From: Halobacterium wangiae
Lineage (GTDB): Archaea > Halobacteriota > Halobacteria > Halobacteriales > Halobacteriaceae
DNA: 64,000 nucleotides
Assembly: GCF_021249345.1 (NCBI RefSeq)
Contig: NZ_CP089588.1
Coordinates: forward strand, 1,798,001-1,862,000
Direction: 5' to 3'
Positions 21,652 through 40,500 of this stretch are shown piece after piece. Made by a program: the position numbers and the translations under genes. The notes beneath the pieces were generated by a model. It did not search any database, was not told where the DNA came from, and worked only from the letters and a program-made list of their open reading frames with translations. Positions within the stretch are counted from its first letter, which is position 1, and each line of letters begins with the position of its first letter.

Positions 21652-24633
21652 TTAGACCGGGAGAGCAAAGCAAACGTTCTCTACCTCTGGCGCAAGTGAG
21701 ATGACCTGAGCCTTCCGCTGCAGTTCTTGGCGACGGTCTTCGATACGCTGCTCAAGTTTGTTGAGCCGTTCTTGTTGACCCCGGATCGCGATGTCCATAT
21801 TCGACCCAGCCTCTGCTTTCCGCTCATAGTTCTCGATGAACTCCTCGATCCGCTGTCGTTCAGCCTCCGCATACTCCTCAAGGTCATCCAGTTCTTGCTG
21901 GGTCTCCTCTCGGCGGCGTTCGTGTAGTTCCTCTCTTAAGGAAGTGACCTGCTGGCTGATGTACCGGTCCGCGGCTTCTCGTAGCTGGTCCTGGCTCTGT
22001 ATCAGCGATCGCACACGGTCCGCATCGGGCGACCCTTTGATACTGTCACCCTGAACAACACGCTGACCCATCCGCTGCCGGGGGTCTTGATGGCGGGCAT
22101 CGACATACACAGGGATCATATCTTCCCGGATGACCTCGCCCGTCCCGTCCTCGAACGTCACGCGGTAGTTGTATGCAATCCCCGGTTCGTCGACGAACGG
22201 GAGGAGCTTTAGCCCAACATCTCCGTGCTCACTATCCAGGATTTGCTGCATTAGCCGCTGGACCAGATCATCATCGGGTGAGACGTAGTCGATACCATCG
22301 TGGTCCATCGCGAAGTCTCGGCTGAACGTGAACGGCCCGTACTCCTCGTCCGTTCCTTGCCGTAGAGAGCGTGGCAGCTGGGCCCTGTAGAGATTGCTCC
22401 CGGCTTTCTCGACGTCGCCACCGAGCGCCTCGACGCCGCGTTCGACGAACTCGTGGATGTCGGCCTCCGTCCCGTAGACATCCTCAGACTCGTCCATCAC
22501 CTCCTGGATCTTCTCCCGGCTCTCCTGGTCAAACGTGCTCGTGTCGATGAGGCTGCGTTCGTACCACTCCTGGAGCGTGCGTTGACGCTCGTCGATGAGC
22601 TCCTCGAGTTCCTCCTTGGTTGCACTCGCCGGTTCGTCGTTCTGGATGGACTCCATGATGAGCGAGTCGACGTTGATGTCGTCGAGCATCCCCAACACGT
22701 CAGCCGTGTTGCCGAGTTTGCCGCGGATGTTCTCGACCTTGTTCTGGAGCATGTCGAAGATCTCGCCCTCGCGCGTATCCTCGAACGTGAAGTTCCAGAC
22801 TTTGACCTCCTTGTCCTGGCCGTAGCGGTGGAGCCGGCCGATGCGCTGCTCGAGGCGGTTCGGGTTCCACGGCAGCTCGTAGTTCACCATGATGTGGCAG
22901 CTGTGCTGGAGGTCGATGCCCTCGCTGGCTGCGTCGGTCGCAAACAGCAATCGGGACTGGCCGTGGTTGAACTCCTCCTCGATGCGGGCACGTTCCTCCT
23001 TGTCGACGTTACCGTGGATGACGAGGATCTCGTCGGCCCAGGGTTCGTCCTTGACGAGGTCGAGGAGGTAGTCCAGTGTGTCGCGATACTCGGTGAACAG
23101 CAGGAGTTTCTCGTCGGGTTGCTCCTCTAGCAGCTGCTGGATGTACCGACGCACCTTCTGGGCCTTCGAGTCGACGGAGATGCCCTCAGCGAGCGAGACG
23201 AGGTCGCGGAGCGTTTCAATCTCTTCTTCGAGTTGCGCATCGCTCTCGGTGACGGTCAGCGCGGAGAGTTCTTCCTCAGCTCGTTGTTTGTCCTCTTCGT
23301 CGAGGTCCTCGCCGTCGAGATACGCGGACGCCTCCTCCGAGAGGCTCGTGGAGGTCGACTGCTCATCGACGAGGTCGCCCAAGCGACGCCTCAGCGTCGC
23401 TTGGATGGCGCCGATGCTGCTGACAAGGCGTTTCTGCATCAGTGCCATAGCGAACCCGACCGCTGGCTCATTCAGCTTCTCGGAGCGGTTGTAGACGTTC
23501 TGGACGTAGTCAGTAACCGCGCGGTAGAACTGTCGCTCGTCGTGAGTCATCTCCACGGAAACGGTGTTGACCTCACGGTCGGGGAAAATGCGTTCGCCGT
23601 CATCGTCGTACAGCGCTTGCTTCCCGCGACGAATCATTACGCGGTCGACGGCCTCCTTCGAGAGACCCTGGTCCTCGGAGACGAGGAACGGGTCGATGTA
23701 CTCGACGAGCGAACGGAACGCCTCACCCTTGCCGTCGTGTGGCGTCGCGCTGAGGAGCAGCAGGGAGTCAGAGTTACCAGTTACCCGTTCGACCATCTTC
23801 GACGTCTCGCTTGGCGACTCACCACGCTTGGCGGCCTTGTGGGCCTCGTCGACTATTACGACGTCCCAGAACGCTTCCTCGAGGGCAGGCTGGAACTCGT
23901 CCTGTCGGAGGAAGGCCTGACTCGTGACCATCTGCTGGTGGTCTTGGTCCCAGATGTTGGCCTCGTCGCCGAGTCGGCGGCGTTCGCCTTCAACCCACTG
24001 TCGGTCGGCCGGCGTGAGGTCGATGTCGAAGAAGCGGTCCATATCACGAATCCACTTCTTCTGGAGATGGGCAGGGACGACGAACATGACGCGGTCGGCA
24101 CGATTCCGGGCGGTGAGCTCTTTGAGGATGAGCCCCGCCTCGATGGTCTTCCCAAGGCCGACGTCGTCGGCGATGAGCGCACGTTGGCGCAGCTTCTGCA
24201 TCACCCAGTTGACTGCGGCGAGCTGATACGGTTCGAGGCGGACCAGCGAATTCGAGATACTCAGCAGCTGCCCCTGCTCGTGGGCGATTTGAAGTTGGAG
24301 CGCCTGCGAACGTAGGTCGAACCACTCGGCCGAGACCGACTCGTGGTCGGGATGTAGCTGTTCGGCTGACGCCGAGCGCAGTTCCCCAAGCTGACCGCGT
24401 TTGGGTTCGACCTTGACGTCGTCGATACAGACGGTTTTCACGCCGGCGTCTTCGACGTAGGCCCGGAGATAGTCGAGATCGCCGACGGAGTAGGTCTTAA
24501 TGACCTCGGCGGCACTATCGTTGAGGAGGATCGTGTCGCCAGGGGCGAGGTCAATAGACATTAATGCTTTAGTCTTGATAGGGATAGTTACAAATGCTTC
24601 GCGGTCAGCGGATCGAATCCTTGGATTCTGCAC
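21652..24633 (-). CDS. brxHII: BREX helicase, BrxHII/SNF2-type
   Basis: A 993-aa SF2 helicase. Motif I is LIADDVGLGKTIEAGL (about residue 153), motif II VVIVDEAHKAAKRG (about 255), motif III LLLLSATPHDG, motif V ATDAASEGIDLQ and motif VI RLEQRIGRLHRYGQ. These are the features of RapA/SNF2-like helicases found in BREX types with brxHII. The C-terminal 150 residues form a long coiled coil (about 860-960). The start could be the GTG at 24633 or the ATG at 24561; a TATAAA at the right distance before the GTG supports the former. In BREX it is expected to remodel or translocate on DNA together with PglX and PglZ. Confidence 0.8.
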   Translation of the reverse strand: MQNPRIRSADREAFVTIPIKTKALMSIDLAPGDTILLNDSAAEVIKTYSVGDLDYLRAYVEDAGVKTVCIDDVKVEPKRGQLGELRSASAEQLHPDHESVSAEWFDLRSQALQLQIAHEQGQLLSISNSLVRLEPYQLAAVNWVMQKLRQRALIADDVGLGKTIEAGLILKELTARNRADRVMFVVPAHLQKKWIRDMDRFFDIDLTPADRQWVEGERRRLGDEANIWDQDHQQMVTSQAFLRQDEFQPALEEAFWDVVIVDEAHKAAKRGESPSETSKMVERVTGNSDSLLLLSATPHDGKGEAFRSLVEYIDPFLVSEDQGLSKEAVDRVMIRRGKQALYDDDGERIFPDREVNTVSVEMTHDERQFYRAVTDYVQNVYNRSEKLNEPAVGFAMALMQKRLVSSIGAIQATLRRRLGDLVDEQSTSTSLSEEASAYLDGEDLDEEDKQRAEEELSALTVTESDAQLEEEIETLRDLVSLAEGISVDSKAQKVRRYIQQLLEEQPDEKLLLFTEYRDTLDYLLDLVKDEPWADEILVIHGNVDKEERARIEEEFNHGQSRLLFATDAASEGIDLQHSCHIMVNYELPWNPNRLEQRIGRLHRYGQDKEVKVWNFTFEDTREGEIFDMLQNKVENIRGKLGNTADVLGMLDDINVDSLIMESIQNDEPASATKEELEELIDERQRTLQEWYERSLIDTSTFDQESREKIQEVMDESEDVYGTEADIHEFVERGVEALGGDVEKAGSNLYRAQLPRSLRQGTDEEYGPFTFSRDFAMDHDGIDYVSPDDDLVQRLMQQILDSEHGDVGLKLLPFVDEPGIAYNYRVTFEDGTGEVIREDMIPVYVDARHQDPRQRMGQRVVQGDSIKGSPDADRVRSLIQSQDQLREAADRYISQQVTSLREELHERRREETQQELDDLEEYAEAERQRIEEFIENYERKAEAGSNMDIAIRGQQERLNKLEQRIEDRRQELQRKAQVISLAPEVENVCFALPV

Positions 24634-24647
24634 TGAATAGGGTCCTC

Positions 24648-24663
24648 CCTTATCATTTATATG
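24648..24663 (-). promoter_or_regulatory. TATA box of the BREX helicase, overlapping the tbp start codon
   Basis: On the minus strand the sequence is GACATATAAATGATAA. The TATAAA core covers 24656-24661, which is 23-28 nt before the helicase GTG at 24633. The same bases include the A of the tbp ATG at 24661 on the plus strand. Confidence 0.5.
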
Positions 24664-25227
24664 TCATCGTTTAAAGTAAACGAACAGGAGCTGTCGTCGG
24701 CTGGAATCGAGATTACGAATATAGTGGCAAAGCTGGATCTTGATATAGAATTTGACTTGTCCTATTTATCGACACAAATACCTAATTCAACGTATGAACC
24801 TGAACAATACCCTAGTCTAATATTCCGGCCAGAAAAACTCCCAACTGTATTAGTCACCCGTTCAGGAATACTCCTGTTTACTGGTGGAAATTCAATTGAT
24901 GGCCTGAAAGATTCATATCAGTGTATTTCGGATGAGTTGGAGGAGATTGGCGTGAGTGATGTTGGGGAAACAGAAAACATCGAGATTGTGAATATTGTCT
25001 CATCCTTCGAACTAAGTTCAGAGGTCGACTTGAACTATCTCTCAGTCAGTCTTGGACTGGAAAATATAGAGTATGAGCCTGAACAATTCCCAGGATTAGT
25101 TTATAGAATCGAGAAAGGACCAGTCGTACTTATTTTCGCCTCTGGTAAGATAGTGATTACTGGTGCAGAAACCACAGCAGAAATTTTGAACGCAGCCGAT
25201 ACAATACGCGAGCTAATCCCGAACTGA
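24661..25227 (+). CDS. tbp: TATA-binding protein (TBP) paralogue inside BREX
   Basis: A 188-aa protein with the two direct repeats of the TBP saddle: residues about 16-98 and 107-188. Repeat 2 is classical (YEPEQFPGLVYR, then LIFASGKIVITGA). Repeat 1 is degenerate (YEPEQYPSLIFR, then VLVTRSGILLFTGG): the two intercalating phenylalanines are Tyr50 and Thr66 instead, whereas repeat 2 keeps Phe143 and Phe159. TBP recognises the promoter TATA box and recruits TFB and RNA polymerase. The gene is on the plus strand in an otherwise minus-strand BREX operon, 27 nt from the helicase start and 3 nt from the pglZ stop. It is clearly AT-rich (about 40% G+C by eye), which suggests transfer. Haloarchaeal plasmids often carry extra TBPs, but placement inside BREX is striking. 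Confidence 0.93.
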   Translation: MSSFKVNEQELSSAGIEITNIVAKLDLDIEFDLSYLSTQIPNSTYEPEQYPSLIFRPEKLPTVLVTRSGILLFTGGNSIDGLKDSYQCISDELEEIGVSDVGETENIEIVNIVSSFELSSEVDLNYLSVSLGLENIEYEPEQFPGLVYRIEKGPVVLIFASGKIVITGAETTAEILNAADTIRELIPN

Positions 25228-25230
25228 CCT

Positions 25231-27396
25231 CTACTCTCGGGTTACTGTCACAAAGTTCAATATGAACTCCTGAGGTAGGACACCACCATGGTAGAAGCGT
25301 GCGTCCGGTAGTCCTTGGTTGCGGAAGCGTTGAATCGGATCCGCGAGGACACTGATTTTCGTGTCGTCGTCGAGATAGCCGAGATGAGTGTTCTCGTCGA
25401 GGAGGACGCCAGGTGCATCCTCGTCGATGTCTGTTCCGGCTACCCAACGGCGCGTCACTTGCTTCGCCTCGTCCGGTGGATAGATGCCATCAAGGTCGAT
25501 GTTCTGGGGAAGGGAGACAAAGCCGTGGTCGGCGAGTATGTATGCGCGGTCCCACTCCCCTTGGTCGAGCTTCTCACAGATGATGTCCGAGATTTTCTCG
25601 ATGCGGTCGCTGAATAGCGCCTCGAAGTCGGTCAGTTCTTCTTCACCAGCTTTGTCGAGGTCGTTCCAGTAGTACGCGACGCGGGTGTTGCTCCACCCCG
25701 ACTCGTCGTCCTCGCTCTGCATGATGTAACTCCAGCCATCGTCCTTCAGCATCTTCTCGCGCTGGTAGTTAGTGATCACGCGGCCGTTGCGTTCCGGAAC
25801 GAGTTCCCCGTCGTCGAGTTCGATGTTGAAGCTGAACTTACTGCCGGGCGTGAGCGCTGCTTTTCCGAACTCGGTGTCCGAGGGAAGTGTTCCGACCCAA
25901 GCAGTCTCGTCAACTTCGAGGCTGGGAAGTTCACGACGGACGGACTCCGCAAGTTCATGGGCAAGGTCGAAGCGCAGCGCGTCGATGATGAACAACGCGA
26001 CGCTCTGGCCACTCTGGAGGTGTTCTTGCTCTTGGTCGAAGAACTGGTGGGCGTAGTTTTCGCCGACAAACGGTGAGCCTGCCTCGATCTGGTCGACGAC
26101 CAGGTTGCCGAGATCGCAGAGGTAGTCGAGGTAGCGTGACTCAGTCAGCGACGTGCGCAGGTCGTCGAGACTCGCCGTCGCGGGATGCTCCTCGGGGAGC
26201 ACGCGCTCGGGCTCGCCCGAGATGATGAGGTTGAAGACGGCGTTGTCGATCTGCCAGGTCCCATTGTCGACGTCACCGTAGAGGTCGACGACATCGGTCG
26301 TATCGCCACGCTCCTCCCACGTTTCGAGTTCGTGTGCGAGTTTGGCAACCTCGACGGCCTGGTTCCAGACGCTCGTCCACGGGACATCGCCGTAGGTCGT
26401 TTCGAGACGCTGGTAGCGTGTGGCCGCTCGGGTTGTACACGTCTCGTACTCGCCGTCGTGAAATGCTTGTAGCCACTCGTTCCAGAGCTCGTGTTCGAGC
26501 GAGGCGTCGACAGGACAGTCGGCCAATTCCCACGGTTCGTCGTAGGACCGAAGGATGTCGTGCCAGAACTGGGCGTCCGGATCGAGGTACACGTGCGCCA
26601 GCTCTTCGGCACGTTCTGGGTCGACTTTGCTCAGTAGCGACTGGAGTTCAGGTCGGGAGATCCCGAGTCCCGAACTGGACTCGGGTCGGTATTCGGCGTC
26701 GAGCAGCGACGTATCGAGCCCCGCCTCGACGAGCCACTCGGCGACCGCCCAACGCCGTGTACGCGTCACGAGCACGTCCTCGTCGGTGACGCCGTCGACA
26801 GCTGCGACGCCGTTGTCGACCAACAGATCGCGAATCTGTAGCAGATCGCCGGTCTCGTCGGGAAGATTCTCGGCGCCGTGTTCGAGAACGAACTGAACCG
26901 GGTCCTCGTGGCCATCGAGGACGATCTTCGTCTGGAGGCCCTGGAGCGTCGGGAGGCCACCCTCGCCGTTGAGCTCCTGGAAGAGCGTCTTGGCGACCTG
27001 TTCGCGGTCACTTTCGCCGACGTCCTCGTAGGCCGTGCGGATCGAAGCCGCCTGGATACGGTCGTTCTCGAAGCAGCGTGCGGCGAGCTTACCGATATGC
27101 GCTTCAACGACGCCACCGGTGTTCTCGACATCCTTGAACCAGTCCACGTCGTCGCTGTGGGCCTGTGGTACGTACCAGACGGTTCGGTCGCGGGGTGCGT
27201 CGGCACGCAACTCGAGTGGTGTCTGCTCGGCCGCGTGGAATTCACAGCCCAGAGAGTGACTCACACTTTCGATAATATCGTAAAGGTAACCACCGTCGTC
27301 CCACCAGAGTACGACCGGATCGTCATCGGCCGCCTCATCGGTGGCAGTCTCGATGGCGTCTTCAGCGCATCGTGGAAGGGTTTTCGTGGCGGGCAT
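25231..27396 (-). CDS. pglZ: BREX phosphatase-superfamily protein PglZ
   Basis: A 721-aa PglZ, the hallmark BREX protein of the alkaline-phosphatase superfamily. The metal/nucleophile region reads ALFIIDALRFDLAHELAE (about residue 468) and the second metal site YILADHGFVSLP (about 618). The C-terminal FYHGGVLPQEFILNFV is characteristic of PglZ. The N-terminal 400 residues are helical and acidic. PglZ is required for BREX methylation and defence and is thought to bind PglX. It starts 2 nt after the 180-aa gene, so it is translated from the same mRNA. Confidence 0.92.
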   Translation of the reverse strand: MPATKTLPRCAEDAIETATDEAADDDPVVLWWDDGGYLYDIIESVSHSLGCEFHAAEQTPLELRADAPRDRTVWYVPQAHSDDVDWFKDVENTGGVVEAHIGKLAARCFENDRIQAASIRTAYEDVGESDREQVAKTLFQELNGEGGLPTLQGLQTKIVLDGHEDPVQFVLEHGAENLPDETGDLLQIRDLLVDNGVAAVDGVTDEDVLVTRTRRWAVAEWLVEAGLDTSLLDAEYRPESSSGLGISRPELQSLLSKVDPERAEELAHVYLDPDAQFWHDILRSYDEPWELADCPVDASLEHELWNEWLQAFHDGEYETCTTRAATRYQRLETTYGDVPWTSVWNQAVEVAKLAHELETWEERGDTTDVVDLYGDVDNGTWQIDNAVFNLIISGEPERVLPEEHPATASLDDLRTSLTESRYLDYLCDLGNLVVDQIEAGSPFVGENYAHQFFDQEQEHLQSGQSVALFIIDALRFDLAHELAESVRRELPSLEVDETAWVGTLPSDTEFGKAALTPGSKFSFNIELDDGELVPERNGRVITNYQREKMLKDDGWSYIMQSEDDESGWSNTRVAYYWNDLDKAGEEELTDFEALFSDRIEKISDIICEKLDQGEWDRAYILADHGFVSLPQNIDLDGIYPPDEAKQVTRRWVAGTDIDEDAPGVLLDENTHLGYLDDDTKISVLADPIQRFRNQGLPDARFYHGGVLPQEFILNFVTVTRE

Positions 27397-27398
27397 GG

Positions 27399-27941
27399 TT
27401 ATTGTGAACCTTTCCGTTTCACGGCTTCAAGTAGTTCCTCACGTGTGTCAGAACCAATCCGCGCGACACCAACACGCTGATAGGTGAGGACAGTACAGCC
27501 CTTCGCCTCCAACTCTTCAAAGTCAAGTCCATCGAGCGAACTTCGAGCGGCGCCGAGACACCAGATTGATTCCGGCTTGGCTGCCTCAACGAGTTCATCC
27601 CATACCTCTTCAACTGTCTTTTGAAAAACGCCAGCTGACAGGAGAATCACCATTACATCTGCATCGGGCGTGGCATCAAGAAGTTCGGCTCTCGCTTGCT
27701 CGGCCATACCGTCACTCCCAACAAGCCCTTGCTCACCTGTATACACAACAGACATTCTTTCTTCGCCTCTGGCCACACCATATTCTTCCGACAGAACGTG
27801 TAGGCGGGCATCTGTCATCTCTACAAGCTCGTCGTACAGGCCTGCGACCATGCCGAAGAGCCCTTCATAGTACTCCTTGACCGGCTGGTCGCGATCCTCG
27901 CCTGTCGTATTTGATCCTTCTGCGAAGATGTGTGCCTGCAT
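27399..27941 (-). CDS. small BREX accessory protein, DUF6884-like
   Basis: A 180-aa protein between pglX (1-nt overlap, TAATG) and pglZ (2-nt gap), so clearly part of the operon. Motif order matches the DUF6884-like protein at 8241-8666: LHVLSEEYGVARGEE (compare WWILSAEHGLLNP), DVMVILLSAGVFQKTVEEVW (compare TTLVLHAGKNYYEELLP), then G-V-x-x-IG. The N-terminal C..K motif of the family is absent (it has EGSNTTGEDRDQP instead), so any catalytic chemistry may be lost or changed. Its role in BREX is unknown. The relation is by eye and needs a profile search. Confidence 0.65.
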   Translation of the reverse strand: MQAHIFAEGSNTTGEDRDQPVKEYYEGLFGMVAGLYDELVEMTDARLHVLSEEYGVARGEERMSVVYTGEQGLVGSDGMAEQARAELLDATPDADVMVILLSAGVFQKTVEEVWDELVEAAKPESIWCLGAARSSLDGLDFEELEAKGCTVLTYQRVGVARIGSDTREELLEAVKRKGSQ

Positions 27942-30900
27942 TAGATCACCTTGTTATCAACTGTTTCTGGGACAATCTCAGCTTCGACGAGTGGGGTGAT
28001 GTTGATTACTACACCGTGTTTTCGATTCGGTTGATAACCGACGGTCGTGATTTCCGAAAGCGCACGGTCGGACCAGTTCGAGGATGTGCGTTTATCGAGC
28101 TCTTGGCAGCGGTCATCGATCTCCTTAGCCAGCGCCTTGAATTCGGCTAGAGGCGGGAGGTCTTCAATCTCTTCGACCCCCTCGTCCTCAGCTATCTCTC
28201 CTAGGTATTTCTCGTCGACAATTGAGGAGTCATCGATCCCTGTCGCGAGCGAGGCAAGGAGGCGTTCATCTTCGGCCAGATTTTTGAACGGGCGGCCGTC
28301 ATCATTGAGTAGGTCGGCACCTTCGCGTTCAAAGTAGTAGGTCATGAACAGAATTCCCGTACTAGAGTAGTGGTCTGATCCTTTGAGCCGCCGTGTAAAG
28401 TACCCAAACAAATCAGCTAGGTGAGCATCGACGGGTTCGTCCACTGGCTTGGCGTACTCCTCGCAGGCGTGTTCGAGTTCTTCGAGCGTTTCGATCCACT
28501 CATTGTGCCACTCCTCGATGGTGTTCCAGAAGTTGTCCGAGAAGGTGTCTTGGAACCACTCCTCGCTGTTGCGGTCGCGCAGCTTTGCCAGCGTCTCGAC
28601 GCGCTGACGGGTCTCCTTACGGAAAGCTGTAACCTTCGGAGCTAATACCTCGACGCGCTCGCGTCCCTCATCGCTGAAGTCTCTCGTATCGGTGCTTCCA
28701 AGGTCCTGAAGTATGTCCTCGAAAATACTGATTTGGTCGAGCCCGTTCGCGCAACGCTCGTACTCTTCGGCGGCCTCAGCCTGCTCGCTAGCGGAGAGTG
28801 AATCCTCATTCCGGCGACGGTTTGCAGCACTACGGTTCTCTCGCAATTCGGCTTTTCGGGGTTCGAGATATTGGTTTGCGAGCCGGTCAAACAGACCTGC
28901 GTCCAGGCTTTGGTAATCGACAAAGCATGCGAAGCCCTCACCTTTCGAATCAGCGATCAGGCGATCCGTGGTGAACCGCCAGATGATTGGCGTGTTCTCC
29001 ATCGTGTCAACATGATAGTCAAATAGATCCTCCTCTATGAACGACCGGAGATTGGGATATGCCTCCTCCGATGCAGATTTGGAGCCTAGGATGTCGTTGA
29101 TTTCGATCAGCCGTTCTTTGGCGTACTCTCCGTAAGTATCCTCAAAGCGCTCAATGATGCGGTCGAGCATCGTGGCCTGGTTGGCGCCCCCGTGTAGGGG
29201 TATAATCCCATCTGATTCCTCGCGGACAGCCATCATCGCAAAATGGTGAACAAGGTCTAAACAGTGGTCACGTATCTCGTTTTTCGGGAACAAGTCGCCC
29301 GACGATTTAGAGCCCCGCACCTGGATCTCTGTCTCAATTGCGTTCTTAGTTTCTTCAGAGACATCGAACAGATCGTAAACGAGCTCGTCGGATGCCTCGG
29401 CGGACGAACTAATTTCGGTCTCCCGGGATCTGGTTCGCTCGTTGGTTATATCGACAGCCTGTGAGATTGAAGTTTCGGGTGAGATATTCCCTTCACCGAT
29501 GTTCGCCTTTCCAGTCGGCGCCTGAGATATGTGTGGATGCTGACCATACACGAACGAATCAGTTTGTTCGTCTGGGAGGATGCGTGGTCCTACGTAGTAG
29601 GGGCTGGTGGGATCTCCCTGCCTTTGAGATACAAATATTTCATACTGGGATTTCGCTTGCTCTTCCAATTGCTTGGTCTCGATTTTCGATGGGTCGTACG
29701 GAATCCGACCGACATCTCCCGGATTCCACTCCCGATCTGGAGTCAAGGAGAGAAACAGTCCATGATAGAGTTCGGAATTGAGCACAATTTGCATTGCCCA
29801 AGCCGAATGTGTATGGGGAAATACCATCGGGCCTTTCTGATCGAAAATGCCGCCTTCGGGATAGTAGCCGAATCGGCGCCCGGTTTCTTTGATATAAGTC
29901 CAAGTCAGCCCCTCACGAAAGTAGTAGTCGGTGTTCTGTGGTCGGGATGAGGAGAGCCGCTTAATTTCGGCCCCGTCGTTGTCCCACCAGACCGTCTTGA
30001 CGGTCTTTGGAAGCGTCCAGGCGTCGGTACCCCCTTTCGCGAAGGGATAGAACGGCTCATCGAACGAGACTTCCCAATGGTCCCGAACGAATCGTGGGTT
30101 GTTCCCTGTTTGAAGGCCTGTTTTCACGTCAGCGACCGAATCACCGTCGATCTGTGCGACATCCGCATCGACGAATGGCGAACCTTCGAACAGCGCCCTC
30201 GCTTCGTCCATCGTCCAGTAACTCATCGGCGACTTCGGGAGACGACTGAATTCCGAGAGTTCGACGCGATAGAGCCGCCGGACATCTCCCGATGTGCCGC
30301 CTAACACCTCAGTCGTGAACACGCTCTCCTTCAAATCCGCACTCGGATCTTCGAGGCGAATAAAGGTCCCATGCTCCTGCGTGTGTTCTCCGGATCGGAG
30401 CACTGTCCCAACTGTTCGAACGGTAGCGTTATCGAGTATCCCCAGCCCGAACTCTGCGAGAAAGTCGAACGAACCAATCTTCCCTAGGAAGTCCTTCCTG
30501 AAGTCTTCAAAACTCCGCTTGAACATAAAGGAACGTGGGATAAGCATCCCGATTCTTCCGTTTGAAGTGCAGAGGTTGTTACAGACCTCCACAAAATTGA
30601 CGTAGAATTCTGGATAGTACGTGTATGTTTTCTCAACGTATTCCTGCACGGGATTCGGCATTCGACCTTTGGCACCGTATGGTGGATTCATCAACGCCAC
30701 ATCGTAATCCTGCGCCAGAATATCCAGCAGCCGAACGAAGCTTCGCAGGTCCTGTGCGAGAAACGAATCCGTTTCTCGGTGTTCCTCCACGGCCTCGCGC
30801 AGACTGTGGAGGACTTGTCCGAGCGTGTGGCTTTCTCGGGGGTCATCACCTAAGGTGATCTGCACACCCCCAACTTCGCTATCATCCTCGAACAGGTCGC

Positions 30901-32239
30901 CGAGTGTCCCGCGTACGTCGAGTAGGCTCCCGAGGCCATGGACTTCCTCGAAGGCGTCCAGAATTTGCCGCAATGCATTCTCGACCTCTTCGTCGTCGCC
31001 AGCGACCTCTTCGAACACAGCCTCAACGCCATCGACCTCAGCGATTGTCGCGTCAGCACAGACGATGCCGACTTCTGGCATATCGAAACCATCGGCGCCC
31101 TCGGCCTCGGCTCGAGTTCGGCCTTTCAGGTAGAGATTAAACGTAGCGAGCTGACAGGCCCGCATATCCAGATCGACACCGTAGAGGTTGTACTGGAGGA
31201 TCTTCTGTGGGATCTCTTCATAAGGCAGGTCTGTCTCGGCGCGCCAGATACGCTCCAACACGTCGAAGGCATATAGAAGGAAGTGGCCGCTTCCACAAGC
31301 GGGGTCGATGACCCGAAGCTCTTCAGGGTGATCGAAGTCGGTGGGTTCACCCTCGTCTTCCGAAGGGACCAGATAGGTACAGAAGTCAGCAATATTGGGA
31401 GTCTCGTCGGGTGAAAGGGGTCGGTTTTTCCTTTCATCGGGGGAGAACTCCTCCTGCGCTTCGACAACATCCTCTAACTCCCCGGTATGTTCGAGATAGA
31501 GTTTTCCGAGCGAGTTGTCAGTGAGCATCCTGACGACCCAGTGGGGGGTGTAGAACTGGTTTGCCGGGGGGACGTCCTCGGGTTCGAGCCCTTCGCGGTC
31601 TCCTTTGCGACGCAGATCGTCGAGTAGTTTGACGTTGTAGTATTCATAGACCCACCCAAGGACATCATCGGCGCGCCAGACTTCGTCGTCGACGCTGTCG
31701 AGCATCCGGCAGAGTTCCTCTAAGGTGTCGTCGTCGGGATCGATGAGGCTGTACGCCGAGGAGCGATCGAATAGGATCTCGATTTCTTCGGCGAGATCGT
31801 CACAGGCGTTGTGATACGCCTCTAGAATGGCTTCGTCCTCCAGCAGGAACTCTTCACGGACGAGGGTCTCGGCGGCGGGCGTCAGGCCGTTATCCTTGAA
31901 GACGGTGACCTCCTCGTCGATGAACCCTCGCACTTCCATGCAGCGCAGCGCGGCCAGACGATTGACGATCGTATAGCCCACGCCAGTCACATACTGATCG
32001 ACGGCTTCCGACCAAGTTTCGCCGTCGACAGCTTCGAGTTCGATCGCCTCTACGAGCTGTTGGGTATCCTCGTCCAGCGAGTCGATGTCCTCAGGCTCGT
32101 CGTCGAGCCCTCTTTGCGTAAGCTGGAATTCGACGTTGTCCTCGACGCGATCCCGCATCTCGGTGACGATGTCTTCGAGGTGTTCACGTTCTTTTTTGTC
32201 CAATTGAGCCTTCCGCTGGGAGAGAGAATCGGTTTCCAT
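27941..32239 (-). CDS. pglX: BREX adenine-specific DNA methyltransferase PglX
   Basis: A 1432-aa class I methyltransferase. Before the catalytic core, NQFYTPHWVVRMLTD (about residue 228) is the usual entry motif. The SAM-binding motif is VIDPACGSGHFLLYAFDVL (about 311) and the catalytic motif ALMNPPYGAKG (about 513), the NPPY of N6-adenine methylases. The long C-terminal part combines target recognition and helical regions. PglX marks host DNA at a non-palindromic site and is also needed for phage exclusion. There are 126 nt between this start and the preceding gene, so an internal promoter is possible (ACATTAAAGG-like box about 32277-32287 on the minus strand). Confidence 0.92.
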   Translation of the reverse strand: METDSLSQRKAQLDKKEREHLEDIVTEMRDRVEDNVEFQLTQRGLDDEPEDIDSLDEDTQQLVEAIELEAVDGETWSEAVDQYVTGVGYTIVNRLAALRCMEVRGFIDEEVTVFKDNGLTPAAETLVREEFLLEDEAILEAYHNACDDLAEEIEILFDRSSAYSLIDPDDDTLEELCRMLDSVDDEVWRADDVLGWVYEYYNVKLLDDLRRKGDREGLEPEDVPPANQFYTPHWVVRMLTDNSLGKLYLEHTGELEDVVEAQEEFSPDERKNRPLSPDETPNIADFCTYLVPSEDEGEPTDFDHPEELRVIDPACGSGHFLLYAFDVLERIWRAETDLPYEEIPQKILQYNLYGVDLDMRACQLATFNLYLKGRTRAEAEGADGFDMPEVGIVCADATIAEVDGVEAVFEEVAGDDEEVENALRQILDAFEEVHGLGSLLDVRGTLGDLFEDDSEVGGVQITLGDDPRESHTLGQVLHSLREAVEEHRETDSFLAQDLRSFVRLLDILAQDYDVALMNPPYGAKGRMPNPVQEYVEKTYTYYPEFYVNFVEVCNNLCTSNGRIGMLIPRSFMFKRSFEDFRKDFLGKIGSFDFLAEFGLGILDNATVRTVGTVLRSGEHTQEHGTFIRLEDPSADLKESVFTTEVLGGTSGDVRRLYRVELSEFSRLPKSPMSYWTMDEARALFEGSPFVDADVAQIDGDSVADVKTGLQTGNNPRFVRDHWEVSFDEPFYPFAKGGTDAWTLPKTVKTVWWDNDGAEIKRLSSSRPQNTDYYFREGLTWTYIKETGRRFGYYPEGGIFDQKGPMVFPHTHSAWAMQIVLNSELYHGLFLSLTPDREWNPGDVGRIPYDPSKIETKQLEEQAKSQYEIFVSQRQGDPTSPYYVGPRILPDEQTDSFVYGQHPHISQAPTGKANIGEGNISPETSISQAVDITNERTRSRETEISSSAEASDELVYDLFDVSEETKNAIETEIQVRGSKSSGDLFPKNEIRDHCLDLVHHFAMMAVREESDGIIPLHGGANQATMLDRIIERFEDTYGEYAKERLIEINDILGSKSASEEAYPNLRSFIEEDLFDYHVDTMENTPIIWRFTTDRLIADSKGEGFACFVDYQSLDAGLFDRLANQYLEPRKAELRENRSAANRRRNEDSLSASEQAEAAEEYERCANGLDQISIFEDILQDLGSTDTRDFSDEGRERVEVLAPKVTAFRKETRQRVETLAKLRDRNSEEWFQDTFSDNFWNTIEEWHNEWIETLEELEHACEEYAKPVDEPVDAHLADLFGYFTRRLKGSDHYSSTGILFMTYYFEREGADLLNDDGRPFKNLAEDERLLASLATGIDDSSIVDEKYLGEIAEDEGVEEIEDLPPLAEFKALAKEIDDRCQELDKRTSSNWSDRALSEITTVGYQPNRKHGVVINITPLVEAEIVPETVDNKVI

Positions 32240-32365: not shown

Positions 32366-33046
32366 CTAGCAATTTCGTTGGGGCATCTTTTTCTCCTGAA
32401 CTACAGGGCACGGCCTGATGTCTTCCAACATCTGTTTGCAGTATCTGGGGAAAATAACGTAGTCTTCGGCATTCTTTCCGTAGTCTATACTATTACTACT
32501 CAATGAGTACCCAGACTCTTTCAAGTAGAAGTAGACGCCACGATCCGGACGTTTAGTCCCCTTTGGGTTATCCTGCTTTCGCCGCTGCCGGGTGCGAATA
32601 TCTTCGTCCCACATGACGAAGAGGTCGGGGTTCAGCAGACTGAGAACCTTCGATGCACCCGTTTGTCCGAAATGGTCCTTCAGGTCTCCCCAGACCTCCT
32701 GAATGACCTGTCGAGTGTCACCGGTCTCGGATATATCCACGTCGTCTAAGGATCGGTCCTGAACGCTTTCGATAGTTTCGTGATACCTTTCGAGAATACG
32801 TTTTACCTCTTCGCCGTCCATCGATTTGGTTTCTCGAGCTGCGAAATTCCAAGTGTACATCAGGAGCATCAAACCTCCAAAGACGAGATCGTCAGAATGG
32901 TACCAATCAGGGCGTTCAGATTCTCTTTCTACCGTCTCCAGCGCTTCGTGATAGTAGTAATTACGCTGCTCTTCGTCCTCGAACAACTCAATTAGTTCTC
33001 GGAACCGATCACAGTCTTCGATTCCACCAGGATACGTTGACGACAC
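32366..33046 (-). CDS. hypothetical 226-aa protein in the BREX operon
   Basis: A predicted soluble, mostly helical protein that starts with GTG at 33046; no upstream ATG fits. The most distinctive stretch is TGASKVLSLLNPDLFVMWDE near residues 128-147, a pattern seen in small uncharacterised proteins that place a conserved K..L..L.P..F..WD in a helical bundle. I cannot assign a function. It lies 86 nt after the second brxC/pglY and 126 nt before pglX, so the spacing is looser than elsewhere in the operon and it may be a later insertion (accessory cargo). Confidence 0.6.
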   Translation of the reverse strand: MSSTYPGGIEDCDRFRELIELFEDEEQRNYYYHEALETVERESERPDWYHSDDLVFGGLMLLMYTWNFAARETKSMDGEEVKRILERYHETIESVQDRSLDDVDISETGDTRQVIQEVWGDLKDHFGQTGASKVLSLLNPDLFVMWDEDIRTRQRRKQDNPKGTKRPDRGVYFYLKESGYSLSSNSIDYGKNAEDYVIFPRYCKQMLEDIRPCPVVQEKKMPQRNC

Positions 33047-33132: not shown

Positions 33133-36100
33133 TCAGTCCTCGAGTAGTACGATACTCCCTTCCTCCAACCCGTCAAGTCGCTCTTTCACAGCTTGGATAC
33201 GCTCCAGCACCTTCTTCGACTCTGAAAGTAGCTCGTTCACACGTTCTTCACTCGGCCGACTTTCGGCATCAACAGCTGACGTAACTTCATCGGTCACGTC
33301 GGCGTTCGGAAGCTCCTGGCGCAACTCTTCAGCGACCATCTGAAGTTCGCCCCACGCATCGTCGTCCGCACTTGGCGGCCTCGGGTCCTTTGCACGCTCG
33401 ATGAGCTGGCGCACACGTCGCTTCGAGGATGGACGTGAAGCGGCGAGCGTAGTCTCGACGGACTCTGTCGTCGGTGAACCTGGGTGCTCCTCACGCAGGT
33501 CTTCGCCTACTGCCCGTAGCTGCGACCAAAGAGCCGAACCGTCAGTGTCGTCGAGGAGGTCACGAACCTGCTCGTACGTTTCGGCCTGCTGGACCACGGT
33601 GGAGTCAACGATATCAGTCTCCGATAGTTCTCCACCGCTCCAGGCAGTCTCGAACACGTCCTCCAGGTCGCCGAGTACGACATCGTCGAACTCATCAGTA
33701 GCACTATCGACAATTCCTCGAACGTCGTCCTCGTTCGACCGTAGCCACGCGCTCAGATCGGCACAGATGGCTTCCGGGCCAGAGTCAGCGGCGGTCTCCC
33801 CTGTGATCCGCCGGTACTGAGCCGACGTTTCGTCGACGCGATGTCCTTTCGCGTCCTCGAGCCGTGACTTGACCGTCGAAACGCTGGGGACAGTATCGCC
33901 TTCCGCTGTCGCTCGCATACTGGCAGTGATCGACGCGTTCGGATAGAGCGAGGTCATCGTGTCGAGCTCGTCGCTGAAGCGTTCCCAGAGTGTCGTTTCG
34001 TCTTCTCTGGCGCCGAAGAGTTCACGAGCGTTCGTGAAGGTTTTCGCCTCCTCAAGTACTGTTTCGAGGTCATCCTCACTTCCGAGGTCGGACGTGGAAA
34101 GCTCGCCCCCGCCGAGGGCTGGGTCGACCGTTGCCTCGAAGGCGCTGAGCGGCACATCGAATTCACGGCTGGCGCCTTTCAGCGTCCGCTTGACAGTCGC
34201 ACTGTTCTCGTTGACCCATTGGCCGAGCTCGCCCAGCCATTCGTCTGGTCCGTCACCAGACGGCTGTTCGCCGAGGACCGTCGTAACGAGCTCTCGTACT
34301 GTCTTCGGGTCGATAATCTCGACGCCGAAGCGGACCTGGAGTGAGGTCAGTCCCCCTTTAGTCCGCACTTGTCGGCCGATAGCGACGGGATCAGACACGT
34401 ACTCCGTATTCTGCTTGAGCGCGACCGACTCGTTGGAGGTCGCAAGTGTGATGAGCAGCGCCGCAATCGACTCCTGTGGCGTCCCGCGGTAGTCCCCGTT
34501 GGCAGTCTGTGTTTGTTGCAGCAGTGTCTCGACGTCGACGGATTTCTGTGCCTCGTACGTATCGATAAACTCGCGACACCAGCCCGTCTCGGCGACTTCC
34601 GAGGTGGCGGTGTCGACGCCAAGCATTGCGGCGTCCGCGTCCGAAAGGGGCCAGTCACCGCTCCCGCGGAAGAACTTCGCTATCGCCTTTGCGTCGTCGA
34701 CCTCGACGAGCGGCCGTGAGAGCGTCTTTCGAGACGAGCCGAAGACAGCGTTGACCTGGTCTTCGACGACGCTGTCAAGCACGCTCGAGCGCGCACCACG
34801 GTGTTCGTGTACCGTGTACACCGACGCATCTTCGAGTATCTCCGTCACCGATGATTCGAGGCGGCGTTTGTCGGCACGGTGTTCGCGTTCGAGTTCCTCG
34901 TGAGATTCTGTCTCTTCGTCCAACACCTGTCCCATCCCGATGACGTTCCGAATCCGCTCCAGCATCGTCTCCGGAACGTCGACAGTGATCAGGATGTGCT
35001 CGCCACCATCCCGGCCGTTGTTCACGTCCTGCCACATCTCGATCTGCTCCGAGACAGTATTGTGATCATCGGCCAGCACACGAACGCGAAGCGCGTCATA
35101 CTCGGGCGACGGCGCTCGGTCGACCGGTTCGAGGATGGAGTACTCGTACCGCAGTGGGACGAGGCGCACGTCGCCGACATCGACCTCGTGGCGGCTGCCG
35201 TCACTCCTGAAGAACGCGTCGTTCTCCCGCAGCCGCGTTTCCACCCACGCCGACAGCTGATGCGGCGAGATCTTCGCGGCCTTGTCCTGGGCGCGACTGA
35301 GGATGCTCTCCTGTTCCTCGGAGACGAGCGTGTAGACCTCGTCGCCTTGGTCGTTCGTCTCGGTGAGTGCCTTCTGCTTGTCGACGAGCGTCTCCAGTCC
35401 CGATTCGGTTCGCTCGACGACGTCGTCGACGGACGCCGTGACGTCGTCGACCATCAACCGCCCGAGGTTCTCTGGCGTCGACGGGACAGCGGGCGTCTGG
35501 TTCAGAAGGTAGAGTCCTTTCGCGAGGCGGACTTCCCACGCATCCTCGTCACCGTCGAACGTCGGGACGAGCGTGTTGTCGATCATCTCCTGGACCCACA
35601 GCGGGAGGTACGTGGTCTCCTCGACCAACAGGTCGAACAGAACGTCCCACGTGACGAGCGAGCCCTCCTCCTTCGACGCCCACCCGAACTTCGTGAACAG
35701 GGACCGAACGAGGACGAGCAGTGCTCGACCCTGAATGTAGTCGCGATCGGTCGACCGACCCTGCGTGATGAGCTCCTGCATCACTGCCCGCAGGAGCGAC
35801 AGGTCGTACTCGCGGAACGGATAGGACTCGACTGGGTCCGGATCCGCGCTCGTCACCGACGAGTACGTGTCGAGTGAGAGACCGGGCATCGACGCCACTA
35901 GCGACTCGACACGTTCGCGTCCCTCGGGGTCCGACTTCTGGAGCCACCGCTTCCGGACGATGATCTCGGTGTCCGCTCCTTCAAGCCGTACCTGTTGATG
36001 CGTCCAGTGATCTTCGGGCGGCTCACCGATGAGACTCTCCCGTGTATCCGGGAGGGAGTACTGCCCGGTGGTGACCACGACCGGGTTCGGCCCACGCTGC

Positions 36101-36966
36101 AGTGCCTCCATCGTCTCCTCGAACTCACGATAGCGATGGCGACTGTCGCCGACGAAGAGCGCCACCTCGTCTAAGCCGAGCAGCAATTCGGTCCGTTTGC
36201 TGCCGTCGTTGAGAGCCTCCGTTGCAGTCTCGACCCGTGAGACGAGGTCCTCGGGATCGAATTCTTCTGGATCGACATCCGCTTCTGCGGTCTCGATGGA
36301 GGCTTTCACGCCCGAACGACTGTTGAGTTCCGTACCGGATGTCTCTTCCATCGCCGGTAACACCTCGTAGAGCCAGCTGCGGAGGGACGCCCGTTCAGCG
36401 AGTACGTCATCGAATGTCTTCCCGTCATGCTCGAACGCTTGGAGGGCTTCCCAGACCCCATCGTACTCCATGTCTAGCGTCCAAGCCCACTCGAGCAGCC
36501 AATTCGGGTCGGTCGGATATCCGAGATCCCGACCAATCGCCTCGAAGATGAGGAACGGCAGCGGCGGCTCTTTCGACGCATCGCGGTCAAGCAGGTTGAG
36601 GAAAACTGGCTTGAGGCGGTTGACGTGAGAGTCCGTGATTGACTGTTGGAGTTCATCGAACCCCGGCCACTGCTCGGCCAGCCGGTCACCCAGGTAGGCG
36701 AACTCGGATTCGTCGTCGGCGAGGAGACCGACCAGCTTCAGGAGGTGGGTCTTCCCCGACCCGAACGTCGCGTGGATGTAGAGGAACCGCGCGGCTTCAT
36801 CGGGATAGGTCTGGATAGCTTCGCCGAGCGTTTCGAGGACCTGCTCGGCACTGTCGGTTTCGTAGAACTCTCTCACGTCGGTCTCGGCTCGTTCGCGAGC
36901 GTTGACTTTCTGTACTTCTTCGAGCTGTCGCGTCGGATCGCTGTGGAAGAGTTCGTCGATAGTCAT
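33133..36966 (-). CDS. brxC: BREX P-loop ATPase BrxC/PglY, second copy
   Basis: A 1277-aa ATPase. Walker A is ATFGSGKTHLLKLVG (about residues 67-77) and Walker B LLLGLDEVALFVGD (about 262). The rest is long and helical, with a low-conservation C-terminus ending in coiled-coil-like heptads. BrxC/PglY proteins are AAA-type ATPases essential for BREX. The ATG overlaps the brxB stop by 4 nt (ATGA). It differs widely from the other copy at 37580-41329, so it is an old paralogue rather than a recent duplicate; the two may form a hetero-complex. Confidence 0.9.
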   Translation of the reverse strand: MTIDELFHSDPTRQLEEVQKVNARERAETDVREFYETDSAEQVLETLGEAIQTYPDEAARFLYIHATFGSGKTHLLKLVGLLADDESEFAYLGDRLAEQWPGFDELQQSITDSHVNRLKPVFLNLLDRDASKEPPLPFLIFEAIGRDLGYPTDPNWLLEWAWTLDMEYDGVWEALQAFEHDGKTFDDVLAERASLRSWLYEVLPAMEETSGTELNSRSGVKASIETAEADVDPEEFDPEDLVSRVETATEALNDGSKRTELLLGLDEVALFVGDSRHRYREFEETMEALQRGPNPVVVTTGQYSLPDTRESLIGEPPEDHWTHQQVRLEGADTEIIVRKRWLQKSDPEGRERVESLVASMPGLSLDTYSSVTSADPDPVESYPFREYDLSLLRAVMQELITQGRSTDRDYIQGRALLVLVRSLFTKFGWASKEEGSLVTWDVLFDLLVEETTYLPLWVQEMIDNTLVPTFDGDEDAWEVRLAKGLYLLNQTPAVPSTPENLGRLMVDDVTASVDDVVERTESGLETLVDKQKALTETNDQGDEVYTLVSEEQESILSRAQDKAAKISPHQLSAWVETRLRENDAFFRSDGSRHEVDVGDVRLVPLRYEYSILEPVDRAPSPEYDALRVRVLADDHNTVSEQIEMWQDVNNGRDGGEHILITVDVPETMLERIRNVIGMGQVLDEETESHEELEREHRADKRRLESSVTEILEDASVYTVHEHRGARSSVLDSVVEDQVNAVFGSSRKTLSRPLVEVDDAKAIAKFFRGSGDWPLSDADAAMLGVDTATSEVAETGWCREFIDTYEAQKSVDVETLLQQTQTANGDYRGTPQESIAALLITLATSNESVALKQNTEYVSDPVAIGRQVRTKGGLTSLQVRFGVEIIDPKTVRELVTTVLGEQPSGDGPDEWLGELGQWVNENSATVKRTLKGASREFDVPLSAFEATVDPALGGGELSTSDLGSEDDLETVLEEAKTFTNARELFGAREDETTLWERFSDELDTMTSLYPNASITASMRATAEGDTVPSVSTVKSRLEDAKGHRVDETSAQYRRITGETAADSGPEAICADLSAWLRSNEDDVRGIVDSATDEFDDVVLGDLEDVFETAWSGGELSETDIVDSTVVQQAETYEQVRDLLDDTDGSALWSQLRAVGEDLREEHPGSPTTESVETTLAASRPSSKRRVRQLIERAKDPRPPSADDDAWGELQMVAEELRQELPNADVTDEVTSAVDAESRPSEERVNELLSESKKVLERIQAVKERLDGLEEGSIVLLED

Positions 36967-37583
36967 TGGAGATGCACCCCCTGGATCTGCCCGTCAATCT
37001 GGTGGGCGGGGTAGTAATGTCGCGATTCCCCCCCGAAGAAGCTCAGCTTCCCGCCGACGACGTCCCCCGGGAACGGGATTCCGATCGTGGACTTCATGTT
37101 CCGACGGTCAAGCTCGTCCAGTAGTTCCGATGCACGTGTGAACGGATACAGACTGCCGAGATTGAGCAGGAGGACCACATGGCTCTGTGTCTCCAGCTGG
37201 GCTTCGCTGAGCTCGTGTTCGATCATTTGCTGAACGAGTTCTTCGGCGAGCCGGTCCTGCATCGTCTCCTCGATACGCTCACCTGGCGACGTATCGCCCT
37301 CGAGTTCAGCCAGGGGTTCGCCCAGGTCAACGAGGAGTTTGTACACATCGGTCCGTGGAAGGAGTTCGTCAAGCCAGATCGGCTGTACGGTTACGTTGTC
37401 TGGGATCGCTGGGGCTTCCTTTCGTCCATCGGTCCAGGTTGCAAGCCTATCTGCGACCCGATGCTCGACTGCTGGGTCGACAGCAGCGATGACAAACGGG
37501 TTACGAATCCCGTGTTGCCCCTGCGCGAACATCCGTAATTTTTCCTTGAATTCACGATACGGCGACGAACTCGTCTGGCTCAT
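36963..37583 (-). CDS. brxB: BREX protein BrxB (DUF1788)
   Basis: A 206-aa BrxB. The C-terminal signature is VVLLLNLGSLYPFTRASELL, followed by GIPFPGDVVGGKLSFFGG and RHYYPAHQI, matching the family pattern of L..LGSLYPF.R, PG..... L.FFG and YY.A. The function is unknown but it is a core gene of BREX types 1, 3, 5 and 6. It overlaps both neighbours by 4 nt, so it is translationally coupled between the two BrxC/PglY genes. Confidence 0.88.
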   Translation of the reverse strand: MSQTSSSPYREFKEKLRMFAQGQHGIRNPFVIAAVDPAVEHRVADRLATWTDGRKEAPAIPDNVTVQPIWLDELLPRTDVYKLLVDLGEPLAELEGDTSPGERIEETMQDRLAEELVQQMIEHELSEAQLETQSHVVLLLNLGSLYPFTRASELLDELDRRNMKSTIGIPFPGDVVGGKLSFFGGESRHYYPAHQIDGQIQGVHLQ

Positions 37584-40500
37584 CGAATAATCACCCCTTC
37601 GTCAGTCTCCTCGATCTCAAGATCGTGCTGTTCCACGAGACGCTCCAACCGGCGATTCAGTTTCTGCCGATCGTCAGGAACGATGCCGATTTGATCGACG
37701 TCGTCCGGTGTTCGATCGCCAACGATTGACGACAGTTCATCGAGCTGGCTATCCAGTTCACTCGGGCTGTACTCGATGGCATCGGCTAGTGGCTCTAACT
37801 GCGCTAGGTCGTCCGTTACCTCGACGATCTCATCTGTATCCACATCACTCGATAGCGTTGTGATCGCGTTCTCGATCGTTTCGTACCACTGCTGGAGCTG
37901 ACGCATCGGCGTGATGTATCTGCGCTCGAAGGCGGCGTGGAGAACGCCTGTCGGGAGGTCAGTTGCGGAGCGTACCCATAGATGCTCCTCAATCTGAGTG
38001 ACCAGTTCAGGTAGGCCACGCTCTTCAACGAACGCGTTCCACGATCTCTCAAGTTCGGGTGTGAGGTTGGGAACTAATTCTCCGGAGAGTGTACTCCACC
38101 CGTCGGTCGTCCACCACTCGCCGTCAAACGCTGAGGCCGCAGATGAGCGGGACTCGATGGAAGCTTGAGCGTCCTTGTCAACCCAGTCGAACTGGCGGTT
38201 TCGAACCGTTAGTACCGCGTCGAGCTGTTGTAGTGTCGAAAGACGCCGGTTCCAGACGTCGGTTACCTCTTCGACCCACTCTTGGGCCTCGTTGGTCTCG
38301 TCGATGACATCCTCGATGCCGTCATCTTGTGACTTGACGGTTGAGATGCGATTTTTGGTAGTATTGATTCGTTCCGCCAGCTCATCAGTAAACGCATTGA
38401 GTAAGCCAGCGACTTCGTCGGTTCGCACGTCGGTGTCGACGACTAGCGTAACGTCTTCGCGAAGTCCGGTCAGCTTCGAGCGAATCTGCTGGTTCGCTTC
38501 TTGGAGATGGATGAGACCATCCGCGACCGTTTCAGTCGTCTCCTTGAATCCACCCTCTCCCAGCAGCTTGCTCAAGTTTGTGCGTGGAAGGAGTTTCAAC
38601 CTCGTCGTCGAGAAGCTGTCGAGGTCGAGGACAGCTTCATCCTCCAGCGTGTTCCCGTCTTCGTCGATTGGCAGTAGTCTTCCCTCCCGACAGAATCCCC
38701 AGATGATCGCACAGAGAGCAGGCCGGGCGTCGTCGTAGAATGGCTTCTCCTCGACGATCCCGTCGAGAACGGTGTTCATATTGAGTCCCTCGTCGCGGCC
38801 TTTTAGCTGCCGGCCGGTGAGGGACATTACGTTTCGTTGAATCGTCTGTTTACCCTGCCCACTATTCTGGTTCGACGAGGGGACTTGGATTGTTCGTGCC
38901 CACGGCGGGAGCGGTGCATCGCTGTCGAGTTCGCGTAGTTCTCGCAGTCGACTTTCGTCGACCTGGAGCATCATCGGGTGGAAGTCGTCGGGATAGGCGA
39001 CATCGACAGTGGCTTGGATCGCCTTCGAGAGACCGCCGATGTCCGTCCGATCTTTCACGGTATAGGCGCCACTCATCATTGCGCTCGTCAGCTTACTTCG
39101 GACGGCGTTGGCACGCTGTTCGAGGTCACGCTCGACGGCTGGTGGGGCGTCACGCGTCGCAATTGCGTCGCGAAGCGCCCACCACTCAATCATTCGTTTG
39201 CGAAGATCTTGGAGGCCATCTGTGTCGATCTCCCAGTAGAGCGTGTCCTCGTCGGTTTGCTCTGGTTCTATGTCTGGGCGGACGCCCTGCACATCGACGT
39301 CGATGTTCAGCCCACCTTCGGCTTCAATACTGCTCTCGAATGTTGTCCCGTCGAGTCCGAAGTGATACGAAACAGGGTACTCGTCACTAGATTCTCCGTA
39401 CGGGACTGACTCTGGTAGTGACAGGTCCTGGGTGATGCGATTCCAGAGATGTTCATCCAAGGTGTCAACGACATCGTCCCAGTCGGGGTTGGCTTCATTC
39501 TCTTCGGTCTCGTCGTAGATGAGGCGTTCTTCCTGTGTCGCAAACCGGTAGCGAGGCCCACTTTCGTCCTGCGTCGGTCGAATGAACTTCTGTAGTCGAT
39601 CCAGTGATTCCTCGACGCGATTGGTCGTGCTAATCCACGATTGGCCGTTCAGGTCGTCCATGACGGCGACCGCGATGTTCCCTTCGTTCAGGGGAACGAT
39701 TTCGTGGACGTGCTGGAGCAGGAGTACGGCCTTCGCAACGTCGAGGTCGAACTCTTGAAGCTCACTTTCGTCGTCGGCTACCTCGTCAGCGATGCCGGTC
39801 GTCTCTTCGGCGCCCTCGACGACCCGCATATCCTGCGGTAAGATCTCACGGAGTTCAGGCTCAATCAACTCGAAGAAGTCGACCAGCGAGACGATATGGT
39901 CTTCCTTGCCCTCGTCGACCCAGTCGTCGAGCAACCCGTGCATTAATGCGAGGATGGCACGGGCAGTCCCCGAGAAGATCGATTTGGCCGGGTCGTTCGC
40001 CTCCCGACGGAGGTTGAACAGGATTTCGAGGAACAGCGGCGCGTGATACGGCAAGAAGGGGTAGAACTCCACGAGTTCCTCATCATCAATCGCATCGAGT
40101 GGCGGCTTCGTGTTCTGTTTGATTTCGTTGTACACAAGCGACTCAGCCGGTTTCACGTCGGCGTCGTCAAGGACTCGCCGAACCGCGTCATCGCCCGTCT
40201 CCGACTTCTGGAAGAGCCGGCGTTTGGCGATGTCCCCGACGTGCTTGCTCGGGAGCTGATACCGGTGCGGGAACCGGTCTTTGACGATACTGAAATCGGC
40301 CCCGTGGGCCGCGAATTTGGGTTGGACGTCTTCGATTTTTGCCTGCGCCGTCGCGACGAGCTGAATATCGCCGTCTCCGATGTCGTCGACGTTTTCCGCG
40401 AGTGTCTGCAGTTCGGTGAGCCGCTCGAAGTCGGTCCCGATGAAGAGGCTCACCTCGTCGAGCAGGAGGACGAGCTTGACTGGTTGCTCAAGCTCCGCTT

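Follow-up and report, generated by a model that had tools for sequence, protein, structure and literature searches.

Why should a gene for a TATA-binding protein (TBP) lie inside an antiviral operon? To our knowledge, the control of costly antiviral systems in archaea is largely unknown. In bacteria, such systems are controlled by BrxR/WYL regulators and by controller (C) proteins, not by archaeal basal factors. The question is raised here by a stretch of 64,000 nucleotides from Halobacterium wangiae (the window), in which a TBP gene separates two genes of a BREX operon.

The TBP gene and its slot in the BREX operon

The features of the locus are the following.

21652..24561, minus strand: brxHII, SNF2/RapA-like helicase (Pfam, PADLOC; start corrected to ATG 24561)
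24562..24660, no strand: divergent intergenic region of tbp and brxHII, 99 nt, putative promoter region
24661..25227, plus strand: TBP gene (tbp), 188 aa, ATG start, two TBP repeats
25231..27396, minus strand: pglZ, convergent with tbp (Pfam, PADLOC)
27399..27941, minus strand: 180-aa protein of no known family, conserved in related BREX loci
27941..32239, minus strand: pglX, N6-adenine DNA methyltransferase (Pfam, PADLOC)
32366..33046, minus strand: 226-aa protein of no known family in the variable brxC2-pglX slot, found in one other locus only
33133..36966, minus strand: brxC/pglY copy 2 (PADLOC)
36963..37583, minus strand: brxB (PADLOC)
37580..41329, minus strand: brxC/pglY copy 1 (PADLOC)
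41329..42165, minus strand: brxA, first gene of the operon (PADLOC)

The product of tbp contains two PF00352 repeats (E=4e-41, Pfam search), and its closest PDB matches are archaeal and eukaryotic TBPs. The gene is convergent with pglZ and divergent from brxHII, both of which belong to the minus-strand, type-5-like BREX operon. Coordinates, Pfam and PADLOC agree on this placement, as it had been described in the first-pass annotation, and the distance of 3 nt between the stop codons of tbp and pglZ had also been given correctly. However, the gap of 27 nt to the helicase gene had been counted from an upstream GTG at 24633. The PADLOC BrxHII model begins at about residue 28 of the GTG 24633 frame and the homologues begin at the equivalent methionine. 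Therefore, the likely start of brxHII is the ATG at 24561 and the gap is 99 nt. This region is the sole non-coding space for the promoters of tbp and brxHII. The gene is far more AT-rich than its neighbours, as had been noticed before, with a GC content of 41.1% (GC3 38%) against 60.3% for brxHII and 60.5% for pglZ.

PADLOC and Pfam found brxA, brxB, two brxC, pglX, pglZ and brxHII in this one locus, the gene set of type 5 BREX. The PADLOC scores were 421 bits for BrxA, 1972 and 2034 for the two BrxC, 324 for BrxB, 2244 for PglX, 1145 for PglZ and 1941 for BrxHII, and the run on the locus gave no match for the window TBP. The source genome (3.11 Mb, one contig) has a single TBP gene besides tbp, a canonical one. 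It also has five complete TFB genes and one fragment, all outside the window; a TFB partner encoded at the locus was thus rejected. Among the loci compared, only L150 has a homologue of the 226-aa protein, 89% identical.

The same slot is occupied in Halobellus captivus, a member of another family (L035/L155), where the TBP is 95% identical. The comparison of the two genes gave dN 0.025, dS 0.26 and dN/dS 0.094. Therefore, the protein is kept by selection. The 99-nt region differs between the two at about nine positions. A TBP in exactly this slot is common only to these two loci, and other BREX TBPs lie elsewhere. In the closest BREX loci that lack a TBP (L150 and L152; pglZ 95% and brxHII 97% identical) the slot is empty. 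In all three of L150, L152 and L161, the distance from the pglZ stop to the start of brxHII is about 7 nt. Since the relatives are compact, tbp is an insertion into an older arrangement. In L148 and L149 the slot is filled by a short nuclease-like gene, and PDDEXK_5 is the most frequent family among the same-strand slot genes. Haloarchaeal BREX operons (L115-L177) have variable slots between brxC2 and pglX, between pglX and pglZ, and between pglZ and brxHII. The slots contain PDDEXK and GmrSD nucleases, OLD-like ATPases, KwaB-like genes, HTH regulators, transposases and TBPs, many of them in reverse orientation to the operon.

Recurrence of TBPs at BREX and other methyltransferase loci

A search of 391 Halobacteria genomes yielded 64 pglZ loci of this family. 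TBP genes or remnants numbered 12 in 1.49 Mb within 12.5 kb of pglZ and 6 in 7.04 Mb at 12.5-100 kb, a rate ratio of 9.4 (p=5e-6) from lists that leave weak scores out and in which the near match in G242 comes from a later profile only. A TBP is present in no more than about 17% of these BREX loci; BREX therefore works without it. The positions are varied. The TBP is found on the opposite strand upstream of pglX (G016, G317, G387 and one of two in G337), on the same strand between pglX and pglZ (G087), downstream of pglZ (G335, G007 and a remnant in G242), between pglX and brxA (G394), and divergent from brxA (G074). A profile built from five BREX-locus TBPs (A3) was then applied across the class. 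Seven places scored at least 260 bits and the next match 201 bits. Together with an 82-aa remnant in G242 they form a clade in which eight of eight members stand at BREX loci and two of the eight (G337, G242) are decayed. The window TBP fell below the limit of this search (E 1e-40) and is not in the BREX-only clade.

As a result, the linkage of TBPs to BREX that the first-pass annotation had envisaged is upheld by the local enrichment and by the BREX-only clade, but the slot between pglZ and brxHII is shared by Halobellus captivus alone. The link is real without being specific to BREX, as related TBPs accompany type I restriction-modification (R-M) systems and operons of a methyltransferase and an SNF2 helicase. 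The chance insertion confined to this one locus, which that annotation had named as the finding that would count against it, is ruled out by the recurrence at BREX and methyltransferase loci, by the twin slot of Halobellus captivus and by purifying selection.

Beyond BREX, 40 further relatives were picked by profile score only, and 20 control accessory TBPs were drawn, blind to context, from the A4 list. A methyltransferase, HsdR, helicase or BREX gene lies within 5 kb of 38 of the 40 relatives and of none of the 20 controls, a contrast given without a p value because the members are not phylogenetically independent, and one in which 'none' may be under-called, as the local context models were seeded from loci of this analysis and leave N4-C methyltransferases out. 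The contexts include hsdR-hsdM-hsdS type I systems, lone methyltransferases, and a pglX-TBP-pglZ order (L300, L301). Another type is a conserved operon that combines an Eco57I/DrmMI-type methyltransferase and an SNF2 helicase (about 33% identity to BrxHII) with a TBP, or with two in some copies, all on the same strand. Many of its examples (L185, L245-L254, L327) have a GmrSD/DUF262 gene next to them, and no PglZ or BrxC was seen near them. This operon may be a defence system that has yet to be described. Long additional regions occur in some TBPs of the defence side (L126 7987-8919, L256 8968-9951). The N-terminal one of the L126 TBP resembles a winged helix and is a possible sensor or partner domain.

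Could the TBP then be mere cargo? A TBP of a mobile element may have landed in a slot that collects genes and then been carried along when the locus moved as a whole, without serving BREX in any way. The low GC content of tbp marks it as foreign, the slots of other loci are occupied by the nucleases, ATPases, HTH regulators and transposases named above, and two BREX-linked copies (G337, G242) have decayed. Nevertheless, the recurrence at BREX and methyltransferase systems is far above background, the accessory controls show no such company (0/20 with models that omit N4-C methyltransferases), and purifying selection acts on the window gene. We consider this explanation quite unlikely.

The phylogeny separates the two kinds of TBP. 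In a tree of 136 rows, the 45 canonical/regulon TBPs all form one group, in which no member of known context is defence-linked. On the other side, 77 of the 84 with known context are defence-linked, in addition to five viral ones. The window TBP pairs with its Halobellus twin (support 100). Nine TBPs, this pair included, form a group (support 89) that also contains the BREX TBPs of G087 and G337 and one linked to a type I R-M system. The grouping with G353, G087 and G337 had SH-aLRT values of 89-91. The branch of the window TBP is long. In a thinned tree the canonical clade had a support of 96 with the window TBP outside, a placement for which the alternative of the window pair on the canonical side was not rejected (p-AU 0.40). 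The tree requires no fewer than three separate origins of the BREX association and places the window gene in a group other than the BREX-only clade. Thus a single BREX-specific clade that includes the window gene was rejected: of the clade foreseen in the first-pass annotation, the BREX-only group of eight exists, but the TBP that prompted it is not a member. Overall, a haloarchaeal set of TBPs looks to travel with defence based on DNA methyltransferases, and the window gene looks to belong with it.

Viruses also carry such genes. The haloviruses HRTV-9 and HJTV-2 have their own TBPs, and that of HJTV-2 is the sister of two BREX TBPs, those of G394 and G287. In HJTV-2, gp41-gp46 (L325 4001-7242) cluster the TBP with a winged HTH protein, an N4-cytosine methyltransferase and an Eco29kI-type endonuclease as an R-M cassette. 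A viral origin of the window TBP was rejected: no IMG/VR contig encoding a relative was found with the P0001 query, and matches in phage records were just 36-39% identical.

The main rival to a regulatory role sees the TBP as a physical part of the defence itself. The TBP would be a minor-groove clamp that acts with an SNF2 helicase (BrxHII and its relatives) in a Mot1-like manner, locating or stripping promoter complexes on invader DNA. Mot1 is a eukaryotic SNF2 ATPase that works on TBP. The case is strongest for the methyltransferase/helicase operon. Among relatives of the G352 SNF2 helicase (at least 75% identity), a TBP gene abuts or overlaps on the same strand in about 19 of 32 loci, counted with neighbourhood sequence read for part of them. 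On pHLAC01 of H. lacusprofundi, where this operon is HLAC_RS16000-RS16010, the helicase and TBP genes overlap by 4 nt, and the window TBP also adjoins brxHII. On the other hand, helicase operons without an adjacent TBP exist, and the same count led us to reject this operon as an obligate TBP user. Many TBPs accompany type I R-M systems without this helicase, and a clamp would have no need of the TFB contact residues, yet these are conserved. In BREX loci the TBP frequently lies on the other strand and occupies different slots; such varied strand and position suit a regulator better than a stoichiometric subunit. On the whole, this reading is unlikely. A wider version of it seems distinctly improbable: TBP would be a general module of haloarchaeal methyltransferase-based immunity (BREX, type I R-M, methyltransferase/SNF2-helicase operons and the viral R-M cassette), and its helicase-linked form would be a promoter-DNA clamp that loads, or is driven by, the SNF2 translocase, as a prokaryotic counterpart of Mot1-TBP against invader DNA.

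Contact residues, promoters and a possible mechanism

For the understanding of the TBP at the residue level, its DNA and TFB contacts were compared with those of the other TBPs. Phe99 and Phe116 (yeast numbering) kink the downstream half of the TATA element in TBP-DNA structures. Each site is Phe in 44 of the 45 canonical/regulon TBPs. In the defence-linked TBPs, Tyr is found at position 99 in 49 of 63 and at position 116 in 53 of 63. The window TBP has Tyr in place of Phe99 (Tyr50), Thr in place of Phe116 (Thr66), and Ile in place of Lys120. It keeps the central pair Asn69/Asn159 and the C-terminal Phe190 and Phe207. The TFB stirrup (E-x-E-Q/L) is also kept as E186, E188 and Q189, and the Glu pair of the stirrup is invariant in 45 of 45 canonical TBPs. 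The window protein is thus a TBP by homology and, as far as its residues indicate, a divergent one by DNA contacts, with a standard TFB side and one altered DNA half. Intact TFB contacts with half of the kinking residues changed would fit a specialised transcription factor.

The same residues suggest another possibility, in which the TBP is directed at the invader. Its bending half being damaged and its TFB surface normal, it would compete with viral or host TBP for TFB and so damp viral transcription. The loss of the N-terminal Phe pair beside an intact TFB surface is in line with this, as are the TBPs of HRTV-9 and HJTV-2. However, DNA binding is probably retained, since the central minor-groove Asn pair and the C-terminal Phe pair are kept, and a constitutive TFB trap would harm the host. 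The linkage specifically to methyltransferase systems also speaks against it. We regard this possibility as quite unlikely.

The promoters were inspected as well. Most loci of this BREX type (L115-L191) show a well conserved TATA-like element, ACATTAAAG / TCTTCAAG, in the pglX promoter, some 50 nt ahead of the start. This promoter (ACATTAAAG, at about -50) is equally conserved in loci with and without a TBP. A TBP-dependent pglX promoter was therefore rejected, and the conservation gives no help to the proposal of an island-wide switch. The sequences upstream of tbp and brxHII showed no distinctive TATA motif. An unusual TATA motif shared upstream of the defence TBPs was sought by eye and nothing convincing appeared.

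The reading that we prefer, and to which we give an even chance, is that the window TBP is a promoter-selective TBP that gives its defence locus private control. It would bind the host TFB through the unchanged C-terminal repeat. With the N-terminal Phe wedge gone, it may read a different TATA element, which is probably weakly bent. The defence locus would thereby gain its own transcription control. In the relatives that lack a TBP, brxHII lies 7 nt past pglZ and is presumably co-transcribed with it, a link that the insertion of tbp would cut. Parted from pglZ, brxHII would therefore need a promoter in or beside the shared 99 nt. We infer that the best candidate target in the locus is this region common to tbp and brxHII, through which the TBP may control the helicase gene and itself.

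Relation to known systems and to the surrounding island

BrxR/WYL-domain regulators act on BREX and other defence islands in bacteria, and 48% of BrxR homologues co-localise with defence (PMC9122589, PMC9122601). The window TBP resembles BrxR as a putative dedicated transcription factor encoded with BREX and other defence systems. Whereas BrxR is a bacterial WYL-domain repressor, the window gene encodes a homologue of an archaeal basal factor, without a WYL domain, whose regulatory role is putative. Controller proteins of type II R-M systems are small HTH regulators that time R-M expression. They too are regulators carried by a modification-based defence unit, as the window TBP putatively is, but the latter would work through TFB and RNA polymerase.

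TBP genes also occur in the TOTE and TALON conflict systems of bacteria (PMC12458937), which are the nearest precedent for the recruitment of a TBP gene to a defence operon. TOTE and TALON have TPR and OB/cold-shock partners and an effector, whereas no TPR or OB/cold-shock domain was found in the scanned neighbours of the window TBP. Their description (PMC12458937) makes no link to haloarchaeal BREX or to R-M methyltransferases. In the open-licence literature, TOTE/TALON was the only case found of a TBP with BREX, R-M or archaeal defence. A 2026 survey of archaeal immunity (PMC12988326) does not mention TBP. The 2026 BREX survey, which groups types 5 and 6 with type 1, mentions neither TBP nor TATA (PMC12839542), in agreement with the earlier remark that TBP is not among the known BREX parts. 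The window locus matches type 5 BREX of the original classification in brxA, brxB, two brxC/pglY, pglX, pglZ and brxHII, and differs from its part lists in having a TBP.

Multiple TBPs of Halobacterium, such as TbpD, drive subsets of genes (PMC2121645). The window TBP is likewise a haloarchaeal paralogue. Unlike TbpD-type TBPs, it lacks the Phe pair of nearly all canonical/regulon TBPs and is encoded in a defence locus. If the proposal is true, some haloarchaeal TBP copies long taken as regulon factors are immune regulators or parts of immune systems. The defence-tied set, with its own residue signature, would also be a marker for finding archaeal defence systems.

The BREX operon lies in a broader defence island, as indicated by two McrB-like AAA_5 proteins (3638-6667 and 9012-12158, both plus strand) and a PbeA-like helicase (13492-16269, minus strand). 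Abutting the operon at 42423-47874 (minus strand), a UvrD-type helicase and a PD-(D/E)XK protein form an AddAB-like pair, and homologues of this pair, 56-70% identical, flank BREX in L122, L126, L157, L167 and L169.
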